Positions 36,899 to 44,739 of a stretch of 57,200 bases of DNA are shown here, piece after piece. The translations under genes were made by a program, and so were the position numbers. Origin of the DNA: Candidatus Paraprevotella stercoravium (GTDB lineage: Bacteria; Bacteroidota; Bacteroidia; Bacteroidales; Bacteroidaceae); the NCBI GenBank assembly GCA_944320795.1, contig CALUIU010000021.1:1-57200 (forward strand), given 5' to 3'. Positions within the stretch are counted from its first letter, which is position 1. Each line of letters starts with the position of its first letter. Below the pieces are notes generated by a model that saw only the letters and a list, made by a program, of their open reading frames with translations, was not told the DNA's origin and did not search any database.

Positions 36899-37642
36899 TT
36901 AACGTTTTATGTACTTTTTCCCGTTTTGTATGAAGATTTCTCCTTTCATGATGTTACTCTGTTTTCTTCCTTGCAGGTCATACAAGGTGTTATCTTTTAG
37001 GATAACTATTTGAGGTATGGTTAGTCCGTTTGTTTCCTCCTTAGGAAAGTCAGCTGCCGAGAATATACATTTACCGTAGTCGTAGCAGGCTATTAAACGG
37101 TGAAAATAAATATTTTTGTCTATCAAACCCGTGTTCACGAACTCATCCTTGCTCAGGCCGATACCTTCCACAATATAATAAATGTATTCACCATGGGGGT
37201 GGTCAATTCCGGAATCAATCATCAGCCACTTGCGTATTGTTCTGTCAATCACGATGTAATCTTCTTTTAATACGACATTTATATCGTCAAATGCATCTCC
37301 TTTGTGAAGATTCATGTCCATGACAAGATCTTCTTCTCCGTCCTCATCTATCCGATACACTTTGCCATTATTTTCGTATGCTACAATATATTGGGGATAA
37401 ATAACTTCTGCTATGTTCCGATAATCAACAAGCAACTTTTTACAAACCTTTCCATTTACAATGGAGTCACCGTTCACTGTTATGGTCATATAAGCATCCG
37501 GTATATCTTGTCTTGAATCCCTATATGATAAGGATAGTTTCCACATCCTTCCTTCAGTCAGTACAGATTGATACACCTTTTGGCTGAGAATATTTTCCGT
37601 TGAGAAAAACAGCATTATCGCTAATATCATTATCTTCTTCAT
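36899..37642 (-). CDS. Secreted protein of unknown function, last gene of the sigma-barrel cluster
   Basis: The ATG at 37642 overlaps the stop of the preceding oxidoreductase gene (ATGA), so it is coupled to it; the frame's earlier ATG at 37654 is less likely. The 247-residue product has a signal peptide (MKKIMILAIMLFFSTENILS). The body alternates strands (YMTITVNGDSIVNGKVCKKL, YIVAYENNGKVYRIDEDGEE). The C-terminus, LYDLQGRKQSNIMKGEIFIQ, is the common Bacteroidetes ending found on secreted and surface proteins. I recognise no catalytic domain. Its linkage to the sigma-barrel, radical SAM and oxidoreductase genes makes it a possible substrate or effector of the group; this is inference. Confidence 0.75.
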   Translation of the reverse strand: MKKIMILAIMLFFSTENILSQKVYQSVLTEGRMWKLSLSYRDSRQDIPDAYMTITVNGDSIVNGKVCKKLLVDYRNIAEVIYPQYIVAYENNGKVYRIDEDGEEDLVMDMNLHKGDAFDDINVVLKEDYIVIDRTIRKWLMIDSGIDHPHGEYIYYIVEGIGLSKDEFVNTGLIDKNIYFHRLIACYDYGKCIFSAADFPKEETNGLTIPQIVILKDNTLYDLQGRKQSNIMKGEIFIQNGKKYIKR

Positions 37643-38676
37643 TTCTTGATACATTTATTGATCTCGTCTATTAAAATATAAGTATTATACATTGAGTGAA
37701 AACCGCTATTTGGAGCGAATAGGCTTCCTCTTTGCGCGACTTCCACAAAGAACTTTATTTCATCAAAATATCCTTGAGTGTATATTTGATTGTTGACGTT
37801 TGTGGGTACAAAGTTATTTCGGGAGAAGAGGGTTTCTGTTAGAGCTCTTTTTCGCATCACCTTTTCTAATGGAATGCCAAAGGCTTGTCCCTGCTTGGGG
37901 ATAAACGTCAATGTTTCCATTTGGTTCAACTCGTATATGCCTCTTTCAGTATTAACGGTCAATGTCTCGTTGGCATTCTGCCAAGAATAGGCGGTGGAAA
38001 GTTCCAATATCCCTGTTACGGATTCATGTTTTAATGTCAACAATAGACTTTCTCCGTTTTTACTATGGATATATTCACAACTGCGAATTTCTGCTTTGCC
38101 GAAGATATAGCATACATAGTCCAGAGGATGGATAAATAGATCTATCAAAGGGTTTCCTTCTGGATAGCCACCTGTCAGATATCTCATGTTGTAGGTAAGT
38201 AATGTTTCTTTTTTAAGTCGTTTAATCAGAATTTTAGTTGCCGGTGCATAGCGCTTTTGCATCCCTGTCACAACAAAACTTTGTTCCAAATCCATTAGCT
38301 GTTGCAACTCTGTTAAGAATGAGCAAGGAGGCTTTTCTATAAAGAGGGCTTTTCTACTTTTCAGTACCTTTTTAGCATTGGAAAAATGAGCAGAAGGATT
38401 GATAGAGATAAAAACGCCTGTTACTTCCTCGTCTGCAAGTATTTCATCAAGAGATGTTGTAATTTGAACTCCTCTCCATGTTTCTTTCACCAATGGCAGT
38501 TTGCTTTCCGATTTGCAGCAGATATATTTCAGATGAACATGAAGATAGTCAAGCACAGGATATAGGTTGTTTGTACTGTGATTACCGATGCCTACAAAAG
38601 CAAATTTACCATCGTAAGTATGTTTTAGTTGATGGAGATTGCGCAGTCGTTTATATTGTTCTATGATTCGTTTCAT
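37639..38676 (-). CDS. Gfo/Idh/MocA-type oxidoreductase
   Basis: I place the start at ATG 38676, which overlaps the stop of the radical SAM gene (ATGA at 38673-38676). A longer frame begins at 38742 but lies inside that gene. The 345-residue protein has a Rossmann start (FAFVGIGNHSTNNLYP), the NP region FISINPSAHF and the family signature EKPP at about residue 116. Downstream is a typical C-terminal alpha/beta domain (RYLTGGYPEGNPLIDLFIHP). These enzymes use NAD(P) to oxidise or reduce sugars and related compounds. The rather divergent nucleotide loop leaves the substrate open. The coupling suggests it acts with the radical SAM protein. Confidence 0.85.
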   Translation of the reverse strand: MKRIIEQYKRLRNLHQLKHTYDGKFAFVGIGNHSTNNLYPVLDYLHVHLKYICCKSESKLPLVKETWRGVQITTSLDEILADEEVTGVFISINPSAHFSNAKKVLKSRKALFIEKPPCSFLTELQQLMDLEQSFVVTGMQKRYAPATKILIKRLKKETLLTYNMRYLTGGYPEGNPLIDLFIHPLDYVCYIFGKAEIRSCEYIHSKNGESLLLTLKHESVTGILELSTAYSWQNANETLTVNTERGIYELNQMETLTFIPKQGQAFGIPLEKVMRKRALTETLFSRNNFVPTNVNNQIYTQGYFDEIKFFVEVAQRGSLFAPNSGFHSMYNTYILIDEINKCIKK

Positions 38677-39731
38677 TTTCTGAAAAATTGTTTGTAAGTA
38701 CACTTTTTGTTTGCCGACCATTGATATTTTCCATAAGTCCATTCAATCAGTCTCTTGGGTAGCACTTTCTCAAAGTTGCGAAGCAGGATAATGTCGTATT
38801 TTCTATGGAAGTTTATCCAGCATTTATTGCATTGATGGGAATATTGGCATTGTAACTTTACTGATTTTCTGGCATTGAATATTTCATCCAAAGATTGCTT
38901 ATGAATATTGCCCAACACAACACTTAAGTTTTGGCATAGCGGTACATTACCATTGGAATGAATGACCAGTTCGCTGAGTATGCTTTGGCAGCGCAAGTGC
39001 AGATCCCCCTTACGCCATTCGTTATAGAGGGCCACAAAATCATAATTTTCATCTGTATCATGGATGTTTACCGGTATTTGTTCTATGTAATTCTCCATCT
39101 CCACAGCCAGCAGGTCTGCGGTAGTGTCGAAGAAGTCCATTGTGCCGTAAATACCTATTCTGATATCTATGTCATATTGTTTTGCCACATTTATTACATA
39201 TTCCATATCTTTGAAAGAATTCCAAGGAGATAGGCAAAACATTAGTGATATGGGCACCTCGTCTTTCAAAGTTTCCACTACTTCAATTACTTTGTCATAG
39301 CCATTACAGCCTCGCATGTGTTGATAGGTCTCCTTATTCCCATCAAGTGATACATACAAGTGTTTGGGACTGTAAGCCTTCACTGCATGGACGACTTTTT
39401 TGGGTGCAAGGCAGTTGGACAACAGTGTATAGCAGGGGTGGTTCTCCTTTAACCATTCCATGATGGTATCGGCTTCCGGGTGAAGCAGAAATTCTCCGCC
39501 TTCCAAGCCAATAACAGTATTCTTTGTTACACATTTGCTCTGCACTATAGCCTTTATGTCTTCCAATGAAAGATGTTCTTCTGGCTTTTTCCAAATTGAA
39601 CAATGCTTGCAGCGTGACTGGCACTGGGTAGTTGCATAAATCATTAACTGACTTAATTTTTTATGATGAGGACGTAGCATATTGTTTACAAACAGTACCC
39701 CATTAAATAGATAATCTTTTACTTTATACAT
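38673..39731 (-). CDS. Radical SAM/SPASM-domain protein
   Basis: The 352-residue protein has the radical SAM cluster motif CQSRCKHC (Cys37, 41, 44), which binds a 4Fe-4S cluster and S-adenosylmethionine. GLEGGEFLLHPE and LYVSLDGNKETYQHMRG are typical of the MoaA/AlbA-like branch. The C-terminal part is SPASM-like, with Cys in LRCQSILSELVIHSNGNVPL, the next Cys just after it, and CQYSHQCNKCW, for extra iron-sulfur clusters. Such proteins modify peptides or small molecules. No precursor peptide gene is obvious beside it. It follows the sigma-barrel gene by 73 bases on the same strand and is coupled to the oxidoreductase gene downstream. Confidence 0.88.
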   Translation of the reverse strand: MYKVKDYLFNGVLFVNNMLRPHHKKLSQLMIYATTQCQSRCKHCSIWKKPEEHLSLEDIKAIVQSKCVTKNTVIGLEGGEFLLHPEADTIMEWLKENHPCYTLLSNCLAPKKVVHAVKAYSPKHLYVSLDGNKETYQHMRGCNGYDKVIEVVETLKDEVPISLMFCLSPWNSFKDMEYVINVAKQYDIDIRIGIYGTMDFFDTTADLLAVEMENYIEQIPVNIHDTDENYDFVALYNEWRKGDLHLRCQSILSELVIHSNGNVPLCQNLSVVLGNIHKQSLDEIFNARKSVKLQCQYSHQCNKCWINFHRKYDIILLRNFEKVLPKRLIEWTYGKYQWSANKKCTYKQFFRK

Positions 39732-39804
39732 CTTAATCGGATTTTTGTTCTATATTTATATAGATTCAATATTCATCCGATAGACTGCGTGAGAATTTAT
39801 TTAA

Positions 39805-41463
39805 TTACCATGTAAACCTGATACCAAATGGTATAGAGAACATTATAGGATGCTCTGTCCAGATAGTATGTGTACTGCTACCGTTAGGGATATGCCAATA
39901 TAATGTCGGTTCAACATATAACGCCCATTTTGATAAAAATTTGTATTGTATTCCGATGCTGAAATCGGTTGTCCATTGCACAGAAGGTGTTATATTCCAG
40001 CTGTCCGTATAGGCAGACATATTGTTTACAATATAGTCGCAGTTCACTTTCCCGTATATAGGAATCTGTAGAGACATGGCAATAGAACTATATGTCGACA
40101 GGTGTTTATAATCTGCTATACGATAAGAGATTCCGAGAGGTATGCCGAGGTAATGTATCTTCTGTTGCTTACCTATATAATAAGATCCGTTACCCATTGT
40201 GCTTTTCGACTTCAAGAGAGAGTATTGCAGACCAATCTCAATACTCCATCTTTCAGCAATGGATTTATTTAAAGATAGATTAAACGTAATAGGACGATCA
40301 TGCTGCTCTTTTTCTATGATTTCGCCTTGGTTGTGGTCGGCAATCTCCATCAGGGTGAGTTTATCTTGTGGAGTTTGGTCATGAACGGTCATGTGCAGAT
40401 AGCGGCTGTAGTCTTCCCAAGTATTTATATTCTCAGGGAACGTCGGACCGTCAATATCTGGGATAAATTTATCGATGGCAATAAGTTGGTAAATATTCTG
40501 AGCCAATGTTGGACCGACGGAACCTGTGGTAAGTATATGCCATTCTGCCGACTTCTTCTTGGTATCATTGAATGCAAATTCATTATCGGATAGTATAAAC
40601 TGTGGTTTTATGCTATCTACATATTCTGTGCTGTCCTGCTTGTATTCCACAATTTCCATGTCAGATATGGGCGTTTCAACTATGGTAGTGTCTAACAGCT
40701 GCGTGGCGTTTTTTTCTTCTTTTTTGTTGGCATTGGAAGGATTTACATTTTTATGTGCAGATATCTGAGCATAAGTTTTTTCTTTTACGATTGAAATATT
40801 TTCCTTATTTGTGATGTTTTTTCGTTCTTTATCGTCTTTTACAATAATTGAAGAGTGCTGTGGTTGCAACGTTTTTTTTCTTAAAATAAAATAGCAAAGA
40901 GGTATAGCCATAATAATAAGCAAGACGATAGCCAAAAGTTGTCCTTTTGCTATTTTTTGGAGCATTGCTTTGGCTCTTGACAATTGGGACGAAGAACTAT
41001 GCGGTTCTATTCCCAAAATTTCTGCAATTTCCTTGTGTGAAAAACCTTCTATGGCATATAATCTTAAAATCTTTCCATATCCATTCGGTAATTCGTTTAC
41101 GAGATTAAGAATGTCTTGTATATTTACAATTGAATCTGCCGAGACGTTCGTATCAACTATTTTTTCTCCTTCATTAATTATTGGGCCGAAACATATTCTG
41201 TTCTTTCTCTCCATATATTTCAATGCCACATTTCTGACAATACTGGTTAGCCACTCGCTGAATCGTTCTGGAGTATTGAGATTCTGCAAGGAGGAAAAGG
41301 CAAGTATAAAAGCATCATGGACGAGGTCTTTTGCTGTTTCCTCATCTTCTTTTGTTATTTTAATACACAGCCCTAACATTTTAGGATAGTACATATTGTA
41401 TAATGTTTCAAGAGCGTGTGAATCTTTTGTCTTCGCCCTTTTTACCAGCGTTTTTAAGTCCAT
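39805..41463 (-). CDS. ECF sigma factor fused to an outer-membrane beta-barrel
   Basis: One uninterrupted 552-residue frame joins parts that normally work in different compartments. Residues 1-85 are sigma region 2 (EETAKDLVHDAFILAFSSLQ). Residues 113-172 are sigma region 4 with its helix-turn-helix (GFSHKEIAEILGIEPHSSSS, LSRAKAMLQK). Residues 175-194 are one transmembrane helix (QLLAIVLLIIMAIPLCYFIL). Residues 195-305 are a polar Lys/Asn/Thr linker fit to cross the periplasm. Residues 306-552 are strand-rich, end in an aromatic (FSIPFGIRFTW) and carry the WALYVEPTLYW strand shared with Bacteroidetes outer-membrane barrels. The topology implied is sigma in the cytoplasm and barrel in the outer membrane. 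Dual-membrane anti-sigma factors are known in Bacteroides; here the sigma itself carries the barrel and no anti-sigma gene is present. Confidence 0.88.
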   Translation of the reverse strand: MDLKTLVKRAKTKDSHALETLYNMYYPKMLGLCIKITKEDEETAKDLVHDAFILAFSSLQNLNTPERFSEWLTSIVRNVALKYMERKNRICFGPIINEGEKIVDTNVSADSIVNIQDILNLVNELPNGYGKILRLYAIEGFSHKEIAEILGIEPHSSSSQLSRAKAMLQKIAKGQLLAIVLLIIMAIPLCYFILRKKTLQPQHSSIIVKDDKERKNITNKENISIVKEKTYAQISAHKNVNPSNANKKEEKNATQLLDTTIVETPISDMEIVEYKQDSTEYVDSIKPQFILSDNEFAFNDTKKKSAEWHILTTGSVGPTLAQNIYQLIAIDKFIPDIDGPTFPENINTWEDYSRYLHMTVHDQTPQDKLTLMEIADHNQGEIIEKEQHDRPITFNLSLNKSIAERWSIEIGLQYSLLKSKSTMGNGSYYIGKQQKIHYLGIPLGISYRIADYKHLSTYSSIAMSLQIPIYGKVNCDYIVNNMSAYTDSWNITPSVQWTTDFSIGIQYKFLSKWALYVEPTLYWHIPNGSSTHTIWTEHPIMFSIPFGIRFTW

Positions 41464-42071
41464 ATATTTTAGAAAGTGACATATTACTTCCCTATTATTA
41501 ATATAGATACTTACAAGGACAAAAAGACTGCACGAATAAAGTATTATAATGTAATTTCGCTATTGTAAGTTTCTTTCTTTATTGTCTTTTGCATTCTTTT
41601 TCTTTAACGGTAGTCGAAGCAAATTCTTATTTGTCAGACATCTTTTTCTGATTGGGTCACTCTTAAAGCCACGTCTACGGATTTATTGACGTATCTATCA
41701 GACCATCTATCAGATGATCGTTTCCAATTTATTTTTATCAAAAGCAGTCTGGTGGCAGACTTATCCATTTCCGGCTGCAAAACAACTGTCTGGTAGAAAA
41801 TGAGGCCACATTTTGGGTGTAATTACCGTCTTCCAGCTTAATAGTAACAAACCATTCGAAATCAGATGTATGGAACAACAACTCAATATTACAGTCGTGC
41901 CCACTCATTTTTTATGCGCTTATATTCCAACGGAAGAGAAATCATGTTTCTTCAGGAATAAATTTTCTAACAATGGTAAATCTCTTTTTCTGCGATGTAC
42001 ATTCTTTTTTATAAAATCAAGCAGATATGCTTCCTTGAACATAAATCGTACAGTAGTTTGTAAAAACAGAT
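41464..42071 (-). other. Region upstream of the sigma-barrel gene with decayed coding traces
   Basis: No intact gene is supported. A poor -7 candidate (TACTTTAT on the minus strand, about 90 bases before the start) is all I see of a promoter. A direct repeat, ATCTATCAGA, occurs twice (41693-41702 and 41705-41714). A 56-codon minus-strand frame (41738-41908, MSGHDCNIELLFHTSDFEWF...) and a second short frame near 41940-42050 look coding-like but match no family I know. Confidence 0.4.
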
Positions 42072-42691: not shown

Positions 42692-44011
42692 TTATAACTG
42701 GATTACTTTATTGAATTCTGGCCCAGTGATATATCCCTTTTTTACTTTATTTAATGAGATTTCTGCAATAATTCCTCTTTCCATCAATCCTATTAAATCC
42801 GATTTTATGGTAGTAGGGGTTACCTGAAGTCGTATTTGCAGGTCTTTGACTGTGAGGACTTCTTGTGGGGCTTTCTCCAATAATTGGATGATTTCGGCCT
42901 GTCGGGAATTCAGGTTTCCGATTTTCAGGAAACGGGATGATGCTCTCTTTTCTTCGCATTTCCGTTTGATATATTGTTGCAGTTCTTTGAAAGATAATTC
43001 CAGAACTCTCAGATTGTAGGTAATGAAATATCCCATATCATTATGGTCCTGTTCTGTATAGAGAAATGATTTTTCATATGATTTTTTCCCTTTATAGATG
43101 ATTCGGGATATGGAAAGATATTCCATGAGCCAATATCCCTGCCGGAGCATATACCAGTAGAACAAGGCTCGGGCTGTGCGCCCGTTACCGTCTACAAACG
43201 GATGCATATAAGCCAGCATGAAATGAATAATGATGCCTCGAATAATAGGATGAATAAAAACAATGGTCCGCGTTTCATTGAAGAATCGGCAAAGTTCATC
43301 TACAAATTCCGGAATCTCCTCGAAAGAAGGGGGAGTATGAACGATTTCGTGTGTGATACCGTCTTCTACGACCACTTCATTGTTTGTACGGAATCGTCCG
43401 GCGTCCTCTTCCCGTTCAAGCGTCTTTTCTGTCATTAAGGCATGCACTTTCTGGAGCATCTCCCGAGTCAGCGGCTCATTTTTATGTTCCACAATAAAGC
43501 GGATGGTTTGATAATTATTGTAAATCATCTGTTGCGACTTGTCCTTGGGAGTAATTTTCTTACGGAGCATTTCCTTGGCTACTTTTCGAGTGGTTGAGGC
43601 TCCTTCCATCTGACTGGAAGAAATGGCTTCTTCCATTAGAGAGCTGACCAGATACTGTTCCCGGTATTTATCTTGCAGTATGGAATTAGCTCCCCAGGAA
43701 CCGCCAAAATTCATGTCCATTTCATGACACAGACGTTGCATCTTGTTGGTAAGTCCGAAATGGATTCCGTATTTATTCCATGCTGTGGTCTGATGTTTAA
43801 GTCTTTCCAAAACAACATATGTCCAGAGTAGTTTGGGGGAATAGGGGGCTGGTACTTGTTTGTACTTTACCGTATTCCAATATTCGTAGTTGTCGTTAAT
43901 TCCTTCTACAATGGATTTCAATGTTTCCGGTAATGGTTGCTGTAGTGCTTCGAATAATTGTTCCGGTGTGATGTAGGGAGTCTGTTCCATATTCTGTTGC
44001 GTTTTGTTCAT
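42692..44011 (-). CDS. fic: Fic-domain protein with C-terminal winged helix
   Basis: I choose ATG 44011 (MNKTQQNMEQTPYITPEQLF) because the longer frame to 44167 would run through the promoter and palindrome. The 439-residue protein has the complete Fic motif HPFVDGNGRTAR (about 269-280), which transfers AMP from ATP to a target protein. An inhibitory-helix motif of the (S/T)xxxE(G/N) type appears in EAISSSQMEGAST, so activity is probably self-restrained. The last 75 residues form a winged helix (SRQAEIIQLLEKAP...LTVKDLQIRLQVTPTTIKSD) that could bind DNA. The gene is flanked by two copies of the 45-bp palindrome, one in its promoter, so the protein may control its own transcription. Targets are unknown. 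Confidence 0.93.
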   Translation of the reverse strand: MNKTQQNMEQTPYITPEQLFEALQQPLPETLKSIVEGINDNYEYWNTVKYKQVPAPYSPKLLWTYVVLERLKHQTTAWNKYGIHFGLTNKMQRLCHEMDMNFGGSWGANSILQDKYREQYLVSSLMEEAISSSQMEGASTTRKVAKEMLRKKITPKDKSQQMIYNNYQTIRFIVEHKNEPLTREMLQKVHALMTEKTLEREEDAGRFRTNNEVVVEDGITHEIVHTPPSFEEIPEFVDELCRFFNETRTIVFIHPIIRGIIIHFMLAYMHPFVDGNGRTARALFYWYMLRQGYWLMEYLSISRIIYKGKKSYEKSFLYTEQDHNDMGYFITYNLRVLELSFKELQQYIKRKCEEKRASSRFLKIGNLNSRQAEIIQLLEKAPQEVLTVKDLQIRLQVTPTTIKSDLIGLMERGIIAEISLNKVKKGYITGPEFNKVIQL

Positions 44012-44023
44012 TTCAATACATCG

Positions 44024-44055
44024 CAAAAGTATCCAATTCTTTCCAATTTTGCAAA
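44024..44055 (-). promoter_or_regulatory. fic promoter with its -33 element in the palindrome loop
   Basis: On the minus strand, TTTG (44052-44055) lies at the centre of palindrome copy C. A 20-bp spacer follows, and then TACTTTTG (44024-44031), a perfect -7 box. The transcript would start around 44017, only about six bases before the ATG. Anything that binds the palindrome would cover the promoter. Confidence 0.7.
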
Positions 44056-44074
44056 GATTGGAAAGAATTGGATA
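44030..44074. repeat. 45-bp palindrome, copy C
   Basis: Arms TATCCAATTCTTTCCAAT and ATTGGAAAGAATTGGATA pair perfectly around TTTGCAAAG. The off-centre loop shows that its orientation is opposite to copies A and B, so B and C bracket fic as inverted copies. Confidence 0.85.
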
Positions 44075-44181
44075 TTTTATAAACGTTTGTTTTGTGGAAT
44101 AGAATAGGAAAAGATTCCTTATAAATACATAACCTTTATTGTTTTTTGAGCTCCAATGACTGATCATTCCGGTTGAAACTG

Positions 44182-44739
44182 CTGGATGGAGGTAAGGCAG
44201 GTCGCAAGACCGAGTATAGTGCTAAAATCGGTGTCAGCTTGGTGAATGGTTTTACCTACATTGACCATCTCAGCAGGAATACCTACAACGAAGGTTCAGA
44301 CCTGATGCTTCAAATCATGACTTACAAGGAGTGATTTGGATACTACCCACAGGAGGTTCAGGCGGACAAAATATACCTGAACAAGGAAAAACGTAAGCTA
44401 TTCAAGAAATTGGGCATTGCATGTCATTGTCTGTCATTGGGACGTCCAAAGAAGAATCCTGGTCTGGAAGAAGAAAAGCTAAGGCGCAAAGCTTCAGGTG
44501 AGCGCAACGGTGTAGAAGCAACGTTCGGTACTGCCAAACGCGTCTACAGGGCAAACAATATAAGAGCCAAGCTAAGGGAAACGGCTCGGACATGGATTGC
44601 TGCCTGCTTCTTTGTCAAGAATTTGAAGAAGTTCTTGATGGGACTTCTTTGTCTTCTTTTGGAAAAAATCCTCCGATTGCAGCAAATTCACAATACTATT
44701 GGTAATGGTGGCTATCGGGTGAAACCATGTGCAATCTGA
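44182..44739 (+). pseudogene. IS5-type DDE transposase remnant
   Basis: The C-terminal part of a DDE transposase is readable in one frame. It contains LDGGKAGRKTEYSAKIGVSL, ADKIYLNKEKRKLFKKLGI and the conserved end GERNGVEATFGTAKRVYRAN. It is broken by an in-frame TGA at 44332-44334. The N-terminal half, with the first catalytic Asp, is missing, and no terminal inverted repeats are evident. The motif set suits IS5 or IS1182-like elements. The element is dead but shows past transposition next to fic. Confidence 0.82.

Follow-up and report, generated by a model that had tools for sequence, protein, structure and literature searches.

Split systems, in which a separate sigma factor is paired with a dual-membrane anti-sigma factor, have been described as Dma1/Das1 and Dma2/Das2, and as M0N98_03760-61 of Phocaeicola vulgatus (PMC13088901, PMC9308784). 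The phenotypes of dma1 or dma2 deletions are ascribed to, or depend on, the separate sigmas (PMC13088901). In P. vulgatus the antibacterial toxin BcpT switches on the pair, and the same treatment also induces other genes that respond to a BamA inhibitor; envelope stress was suggested as the signal by the authors (PMC9308784). A sigma factor and a barrel joined in one protein are also already known: in Dma3 of Bacteroides thetaiotaomicron (bt_2778) a sigma domain stands at the N-terminus of a Dma-type protein (PMC13088901; J Bacteriol 2026), so our preliminary description of the present locus was wrong to hold that no system of this form had been described. According to the accessible text of that report Dma3 is little characterised, its locus (bt_2778-2779) does not lie beside a separate cognate sigma gene, it is induced upon deletion of dma1 or dma2, and it is dispensable for the hypervesiculation of dma1 and dma2 mutants; BT2778 is elsewhere catalogued as a sigma-70 family factor (PMC10434189). 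In Pseudomonas putida, IutY is a hybrid of a sigma factor, a transmembrane segment and a periplasmic part that is activated or released via Prc and RseP (PMC5411451).

The DNA analysed here, which we call the window, is a stretch of 57,200 nt from Candidatus Paraprevotella stercoravium. It carries a Dma3-type gene at 39805-41463 on the minus strand, identified from its open reading frame, Pfam and AlphaFold, which runs for 552 codons without an internal stop. From the N-terminus, and all on the minus strand, the protein consists of sigma region 2 (residues 1-89; 41197-41463), sigma region 4 (residues 114-172; 40948-41124; Pfam Sigma70_r4_2), which contains an HSSSSQL motif, a transmembrane helix with Pro188 that runs on from the sigma4 helix (residues 175-196; 40876-40941), a disordered and presumably periplasmic tether (residues 197-303; 40555-40875; pLDDT below 50 at 199-303), and a predicted outer-membrane beta-barrel that ends in Trp (residues 304-552; 39808-40554). 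Pfam finds both sigma regions within residues 1-170, while its match to the barrel is weak and below the cut-off; the barrel is assigned from the structure model and from structure comparison. No FecR-like periplasmic anti-sigma domain appears among the nine Pfam families that match the protein at E ≤ 1. The long frames adjoining the gene encode a Fic protein upstream and a radical SAM protein downstream, neither being a separate cognate ECF sigma, and a search of the genome itself gave no second sigma match on contig 21. A short frame at 44410-44739 (+), beside the Fic gene (42692-44167), resembles by eye the end of an IS transposase.

The layout is widespread. In a scan of contigs from one genome per species, at least 526 stretches encode a relative, and in 79 of the best 80 of these loci (the best, not all, chosen with two patterns that both lie within the sigma part) the sigma and the barrel share a single frame. 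A frameshift or an assembly fusion is thereby ruled out for the fused gene, and the preliminary description was right about an intact 552-residue frame with sigma regions 2 and 4 in front; the domain order, for which it had proposed a search, is widespread in Bacteroidales. At the sole other locus among the best 80 (L096:1689-3383) sigma and barrel are two adjoining frames of 272 and 273 aa. The alignment used below has 79 rows, the window protein and 78 loci, leaving out L096 and also L066, where the match starts at residue 62; neighbouring genes were counted over 79 loci, i.e., all of the best 80 except L096.

By their record titles the loci come from, among others, Bacteroides faecis, B. 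salyersiae, Xylanibacter muris, several Prevotella species, Hoylesella timonensis and Muribaculaceae. An intact fused frame occurs in at least 8 of 61 related genomes, in at least 10 copies, and a search within the genus gave five fused copies in 4 of 18 genomes. A search of 392 genomes of the phylum, which scored at most three candidates per genome and hence gives no prevalence rate, turned up a 591-aa frame, from a different family of this order, that combines the two parts. One of the closest relatives (L054:4183-5904), 64-65% identical and with the same neighbours, comes from a record labelled "Roseburia MAG" and is probably a misbinned Bacteroidales contig. At another locus (L018:1489-2981, in genome G019) the sigma with its transmembrane segment (228 aa) and the barrel (269 aa) are overlapping frames, and the barrel frame is without the usual end; judged from these frames, the locus is a broken or split fused gene. 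The window genome itself has a second fused gene, a paralogue of 560 aa on contig 14. Its contig 8 carries a Dma-like barrel frame of 223 aa (L010:3815-4486, minus strand) without sigma, anti-sigma or transmembrane segment, adjoined by what looks by eye like a DUF4112-like gene. A near relative (genome G003, contig 7) has a complete split pair, and the barrel-only frame looks like a remnant or reduced form.

A tree of sigma domains (41 of the 86 fused rows, 13 split partners and 8 other ECFs) shows the window sigma to be related to the sigmas that pair with split Dmas. The fused sigma domains used fall on one side of a branch, with support 85/99 and in 87% of 200 bootstrap trees, and this branch adjoins most of the split partners. 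Since the fused sigmas lie together on one side, the tree fits a single fusion, and the family probably arose that way.

In the AlphaFold model, built on an alignment of 79 rows, the predicted sigma domain leads into a helix (154-197) that combines the end of sigma4 with the membrane segment; residues 199-303 are disordered, and everything from 304 onward forms a barrel. Structure prediction had been named as a check on the earlier proposal of one transmembrane helix, a tether and a C-terminal barrel, and that proposal holds up as a set of predictions. Confidence in the barrel is good from about 351 to 540 and lower in the first strand; the placement of the domains relative to each other is meaningless, because the pTM is 0.46. 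Structurally the front part aligns with E. coli sigma-E, and the barrel part with OprF, NspA and OmpA among others; a C-terminal Trp is present in 77 of the 79 rows. The first long loop of the barrel (residues 326-383; 40315-40488, minus strand), recognized from the model and from conservation, carries W349, Y352 and N378 and is predicted to form two short helices, 349-358 and 366-376. If the barrel is oriented like small barrels generally, this loop presumably faces the cell surface. The equivalent loop is shorter in 13 split Dmas, about 23-51 aa, and is without the TWxEY-type motif; these 13, used for all comparisons with split pairs, do not include Dma1/Das1, Dma2/Das2 or the P. vulgatus proteins.

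The junction between sigma4 and the membrane is constant in length: residues 155-175 span 21 aa in 79/79 rows, with no insertion or deletion between sigma4 and the membrane helix, and H155, S157-S159, Q160, L161, A164 and K165 are invariant. Proline is found at position 188 within the membrane helix in 69 of the 79 rows; a proline in a transmembrane helix is weak evidence, and the rows are related by descent. The charge before the helix exceeds that after it in 75/79 rows, which would place the positive charge on the presumed cytoplasmic side. The tether, 107 aa in the window protein, ranges from 96 to 136 aa across the rows, and its sequence is variable (mean column maximum 0.33); it thus drifts in sequence and keeps its length, as would a cable.

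The split Dmas have 44-68 residues, the anti-sigma domain, ahead of the membrane helix. From these N-terminal domains of the 13 split Dmas we built an HMM, which in a leave-one-out control recovers 13/13 of them at E ≤ 0.021 and 12/13 at E ≤ 2.6e-5. With this model a Dma-type anti-sigma domain is found in 0 of 88 fused rows (at least two loci, the window and a copy in G008, being included twice), the best E value being 0.26. The idea that the fused chain conceals a Dma-type anti-sigma domain is therefore rejected, and the constant 21 residues at positions 155-175 leave no room for one between sigma4 and the membrane.

Directly downstream lie genes that we regard as a cassette, all on the minus strand: a radical SAM/SPASM protein of 352 aa (38673-39731; Pfam Radical_SAM and SPASM) and a Gfo/Idh/MocA-type oxidoreductase (37639-38742; Pfam GFO_IDH_MocA). 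The oxidoreductase gene is overlapped at its end by a gene for a 251-aa protein (36899-37654, minus strand), possibly the last member of the operon. This protein has no Pfam or NCBIfam match; its start looks by eye like a signal peptide, and it ends in a DLQGRK...NGKKYIKR tail, which we take to resemble the tails of exported Bacteroidales proteins. A relative of the radical SAM/SPASM gene is found at 49 of 79 loci, each time downstream and on the same strand, and is missing at 30. A Gfo/Idh relative is found at 42 of 79, each time together with a radical SAM gene. A small lipoprotein family occurs at 26 of the 79 loci, and seven of the loci that lack radical SAM carry a methyltransferase, in some cases on the opposite strand; at 11 of 78 loci, some of them at contig ends, all five recurrent neighbour families are missing. 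Among these proteins, CxxxCxxC is present in 38/38 of the radical SAM proteins of 340-375 aa (49 in total), EKP in 40/40 of the oxidoreductases longer than 320 aa (42 in total), and a lipobox-like Cys in 24 of the 26 lipoproteins. A model of the radical SAM protein (pLDDT 90) resembles peptide maturases (5wgg, SuiB, SkfB), BlsE and anSME at 13-19% identity, and a comparison with PDB sequences gave no match at 1e-3. That the lipoprotein is the substrate of the radical SAM enzyme is a guess.

The fused gene and the cassette share a promoter-like motif. In the window, GCAGTCTTT-N14-ATCTAT lies ahead of the fused gene (41503-41531, minus strand) and GCAGTCTAT-N14-ATCTAT ahead of the radical SAM gene (39760-39788, minus strand), with an identical gap of 14 bases. 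Across the family, exact TGCAGT occurs within 300 nt upstream of 73 of 79 fused genes, mostly followed by CTTTT, and a second block stands about 15 bases past GCAGTC, which is GTATCT in the branch of the window and GGACT and others elsewhere. The commonest upstream 8-mer is shared by 68 of 79 fused genes, compared with 7 for the best in one Markov simulation. Allowing one mismatch in its nine bases, the core GCAGTCTTT is present within 150 nt upstream of 76/79 fused genes, and also within 150 nt past the stop codon in 69/79, where the Markov expectation is 1.25/79. Seven further fused genes from outside the set behave alike: 6/7 carry exact GCAGTCTTT, the one at L016 being without it.

Counted by class, the upstream core is found for 75/78 fused genes, 40/49 radical SAM genes, 20/26 lipoprotein genes and 3/7 methyltransferase genes, and for 2/4 of the c10 family and 2/3 of a FUT-like family. 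It is rare elsewhere, at 1/42 for Gfo/Idh, a gene that follows radical SAM, 0/10 for a second lipoprotein family, and 13/413 for other neighbours. These counts imply that the motif marks the starts of the fused gene and of the cassette, not the region at large. The c10 family, whose members are large (935 aa in L059) and preceded by the motif at L059:4070 and L061:7538, is a possible further target.

The window genome, which is 97% complete, contains exactly three perfect matches to GCAGTCTWT-N14-ATCTWT: the two sites in the window operon and one before the fused paralogue on contig 14. Between that paralogue and its methyltransferase there is no site with one mismatch or fewer, the best by eye having two. 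The looser GCAGTC-N17-ATCTWT gives five matches, the same three promoter sites and two inside long frames, and GCAGTCTTT-N(9-15)-GTATC gives three, one of them the window site; the short TGCAGTCTTT is uninformative in this genome (12 matches versus 9 for the reversed control). A wide regulon is rejected, as the GCAGTC-N17-ATCTWT form has just those two matches besides the three promoter sites. Further weak targets are not discernible, since a scan at up to two mismatches is near background (28 matches versus 19 for the reversed control). TGCAGT also occurs upstream of 4/13 split sigma partners, so the promoter specificities of fused and split sigmas may overlap, and a different sigma could be the reader of the motif, although the motif tracks the fused gene.

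We favor, with a probability of roughly 0.6, the reading that this Dma3-type protein is a sigma factor spanning the envelope in one piece, kept silent by its attachment and freed by proteolysis to transcribe its own gene and the cassette. The sigma domain would lie in the cytoplasm, anchored in the inner membrane by a helix that prolongs the recognition helix of sigma4. The tether of about 107 residues would connect this helix to the small barrel in the outer membrane. The fused protein would thus stand in for the pair of a free sigma and a membrane anti-sigma, and attachment itself most likely silences the sigma. The trigger could be a disturbed barrel, a failure of barrel assembly, or the binding of something by the surface loop. 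The periplasmic part would then be cut first, after which an RseP-like intramembrane protease would cleave the Pro-containing helix. The freed sigma would transcribe from promoters of the GCAGTCTTT type, i.e., those of its own gene and of the adjacent cassette, which comprises a radical SAM/SPASM protein and a Gfo/Idh oxidoreductase here and often a small lipoprotein elsewhere. Proteolytic release, which the preliminary description had proposed beside a mechanical signal from the outer membrane, is a good inference by analogy with IutY. Dma1/Dma2, the P. vulgatus pair and IutY combined make it most economical to suppose that cleavage would follow damage to the outer membrane or a failure of the barrel to assemble. 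The window genome has one gene of the RseP family (PF02163), which says little, as the family is near-universal and present in 14/14 control genomes. An extended version of this reading, possible though doubtful as a whole, is that the protein is a self-contained envelope alarm, in which the signal is the failed assembly of the barrel or its loss from the outer membrane, registered by cleavage of the very chain that begins with the sigma. One gene would then be sensor, cable, inhibitor and transcription factor at once, needing no anti-sigma as a partner and having a promoter almost to itself, and would command little beyond itself and an adjacent lipoprotein/radical SAM/oxidoreductase cassette that would alter a surface lipoprotein or glycan.

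Other readings of the same data have to be considered. ToxR and CadC are one-piece membrane-bound regulators that act while attached, and the fused sigma might likewise stay attached and work at the membrane, with the barrel merely modulating its position or folding. Sigma4 is indeed complete and strongly conserved beside the membrane, and no cleavage site has been identified in the protein; however, sigma4 and the membrane segment are joined in one uninterrupted helix, which makes promoter binding and escape awkward for an attached sigma, and we regard this alternative as unlikely. The conservation also bears on the idea that the sigma half is a functionless passenger of what is chiefly an outer-membrane anchor or porin. 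Over the 79 rows the mean column maximum is 0.76 for region 4, against 0.65 for region 2 and 0.59 for most of the barrel. Neither this better conservation of region 4 nor a promoter-like motif that follows the gene family would be expected of such a protein, and we find this idea scarcely credible.

Alternatively, the sigma could be held in trans by a split Dma or some other anti-sigma, with the barrel as a second layer. Some genomes (G003 and G008) do have split sigma/Dma pairs alongside fused genes, and the induction of dma3 upon deletion of dma1 or dma2 indicates crosstalk of some kind (PMC13088901). In the window genome, however, a search with the window protein gave only the fused paralogue and the 223-aa barrel-only frame as other Dma-like matches, and fused and split sigmas separate in the tree, which makes control in trans quite improbable. 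A sigma silenced by its own attachment and released by proteolysis remains the reading that we prefer.

Dma3, reportedly first named by Pardue et al. in PNAS in 2024, resembles the window protein, as far as its accessible description goes, in having a sigma and a Dma-type part in one chain and no adjoining cognate sigma. A relative in Bacteroides faecis MAJ27 is 42% identical to the window protein over its full length and has the same radical SAM and Gfo/Idh neighbours. Among the papers accessible to us, we came upon no description of the fused layout other than that in PMC13088901, and on no paper that links radical SAM proteins to an ECF sigma; the promoter, the link to the cassette, the breadth of the family and the loss of the anti-sigma domain appear to be additions, though Pardue et al. 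2024 or supplementary material may contain parts of them.

The split Dma pairs share with the window protein the transmembrane helix, the disordered tether, the C-terminal barrel and a related sigma, but there an anti-sigma domain opens the barrel protein and a separate gene encodes the sigma, whereas here the sigma takes that place and there is no anti-sigma domain of the Dma type. IutY, an ECF243-type hybrid, likewise combines a sigma, a single transmembrane segment and a periplasmic part in one chain; as described in the accessible text, its periplasmic part is an anti-sigma domain and its outer-membrane receptor, IutA, is a separate protein, whereas the window protein has the barrel within the chain. 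The ECF48, ECF52 and ECF53 sigmas also carry a C-terminal extension, with transmembrane helices, but they are actinobacterial, their extension is described with a zinc-finger domain that is likely an anti-sigma, and the accessible text mentions no outer-membrane barrel (PMC8999054). Compared with Dma3, which in the accessible text of PMC13088901 is one odd protein, the gene described here belongs to a widespread Bacteroidales family with a testable promoter and target cassette. The family thereby gives a direct route to how an ECF sigma stays silent without an anti-sigma factor, and to how a signal passes both membranes within one chain.
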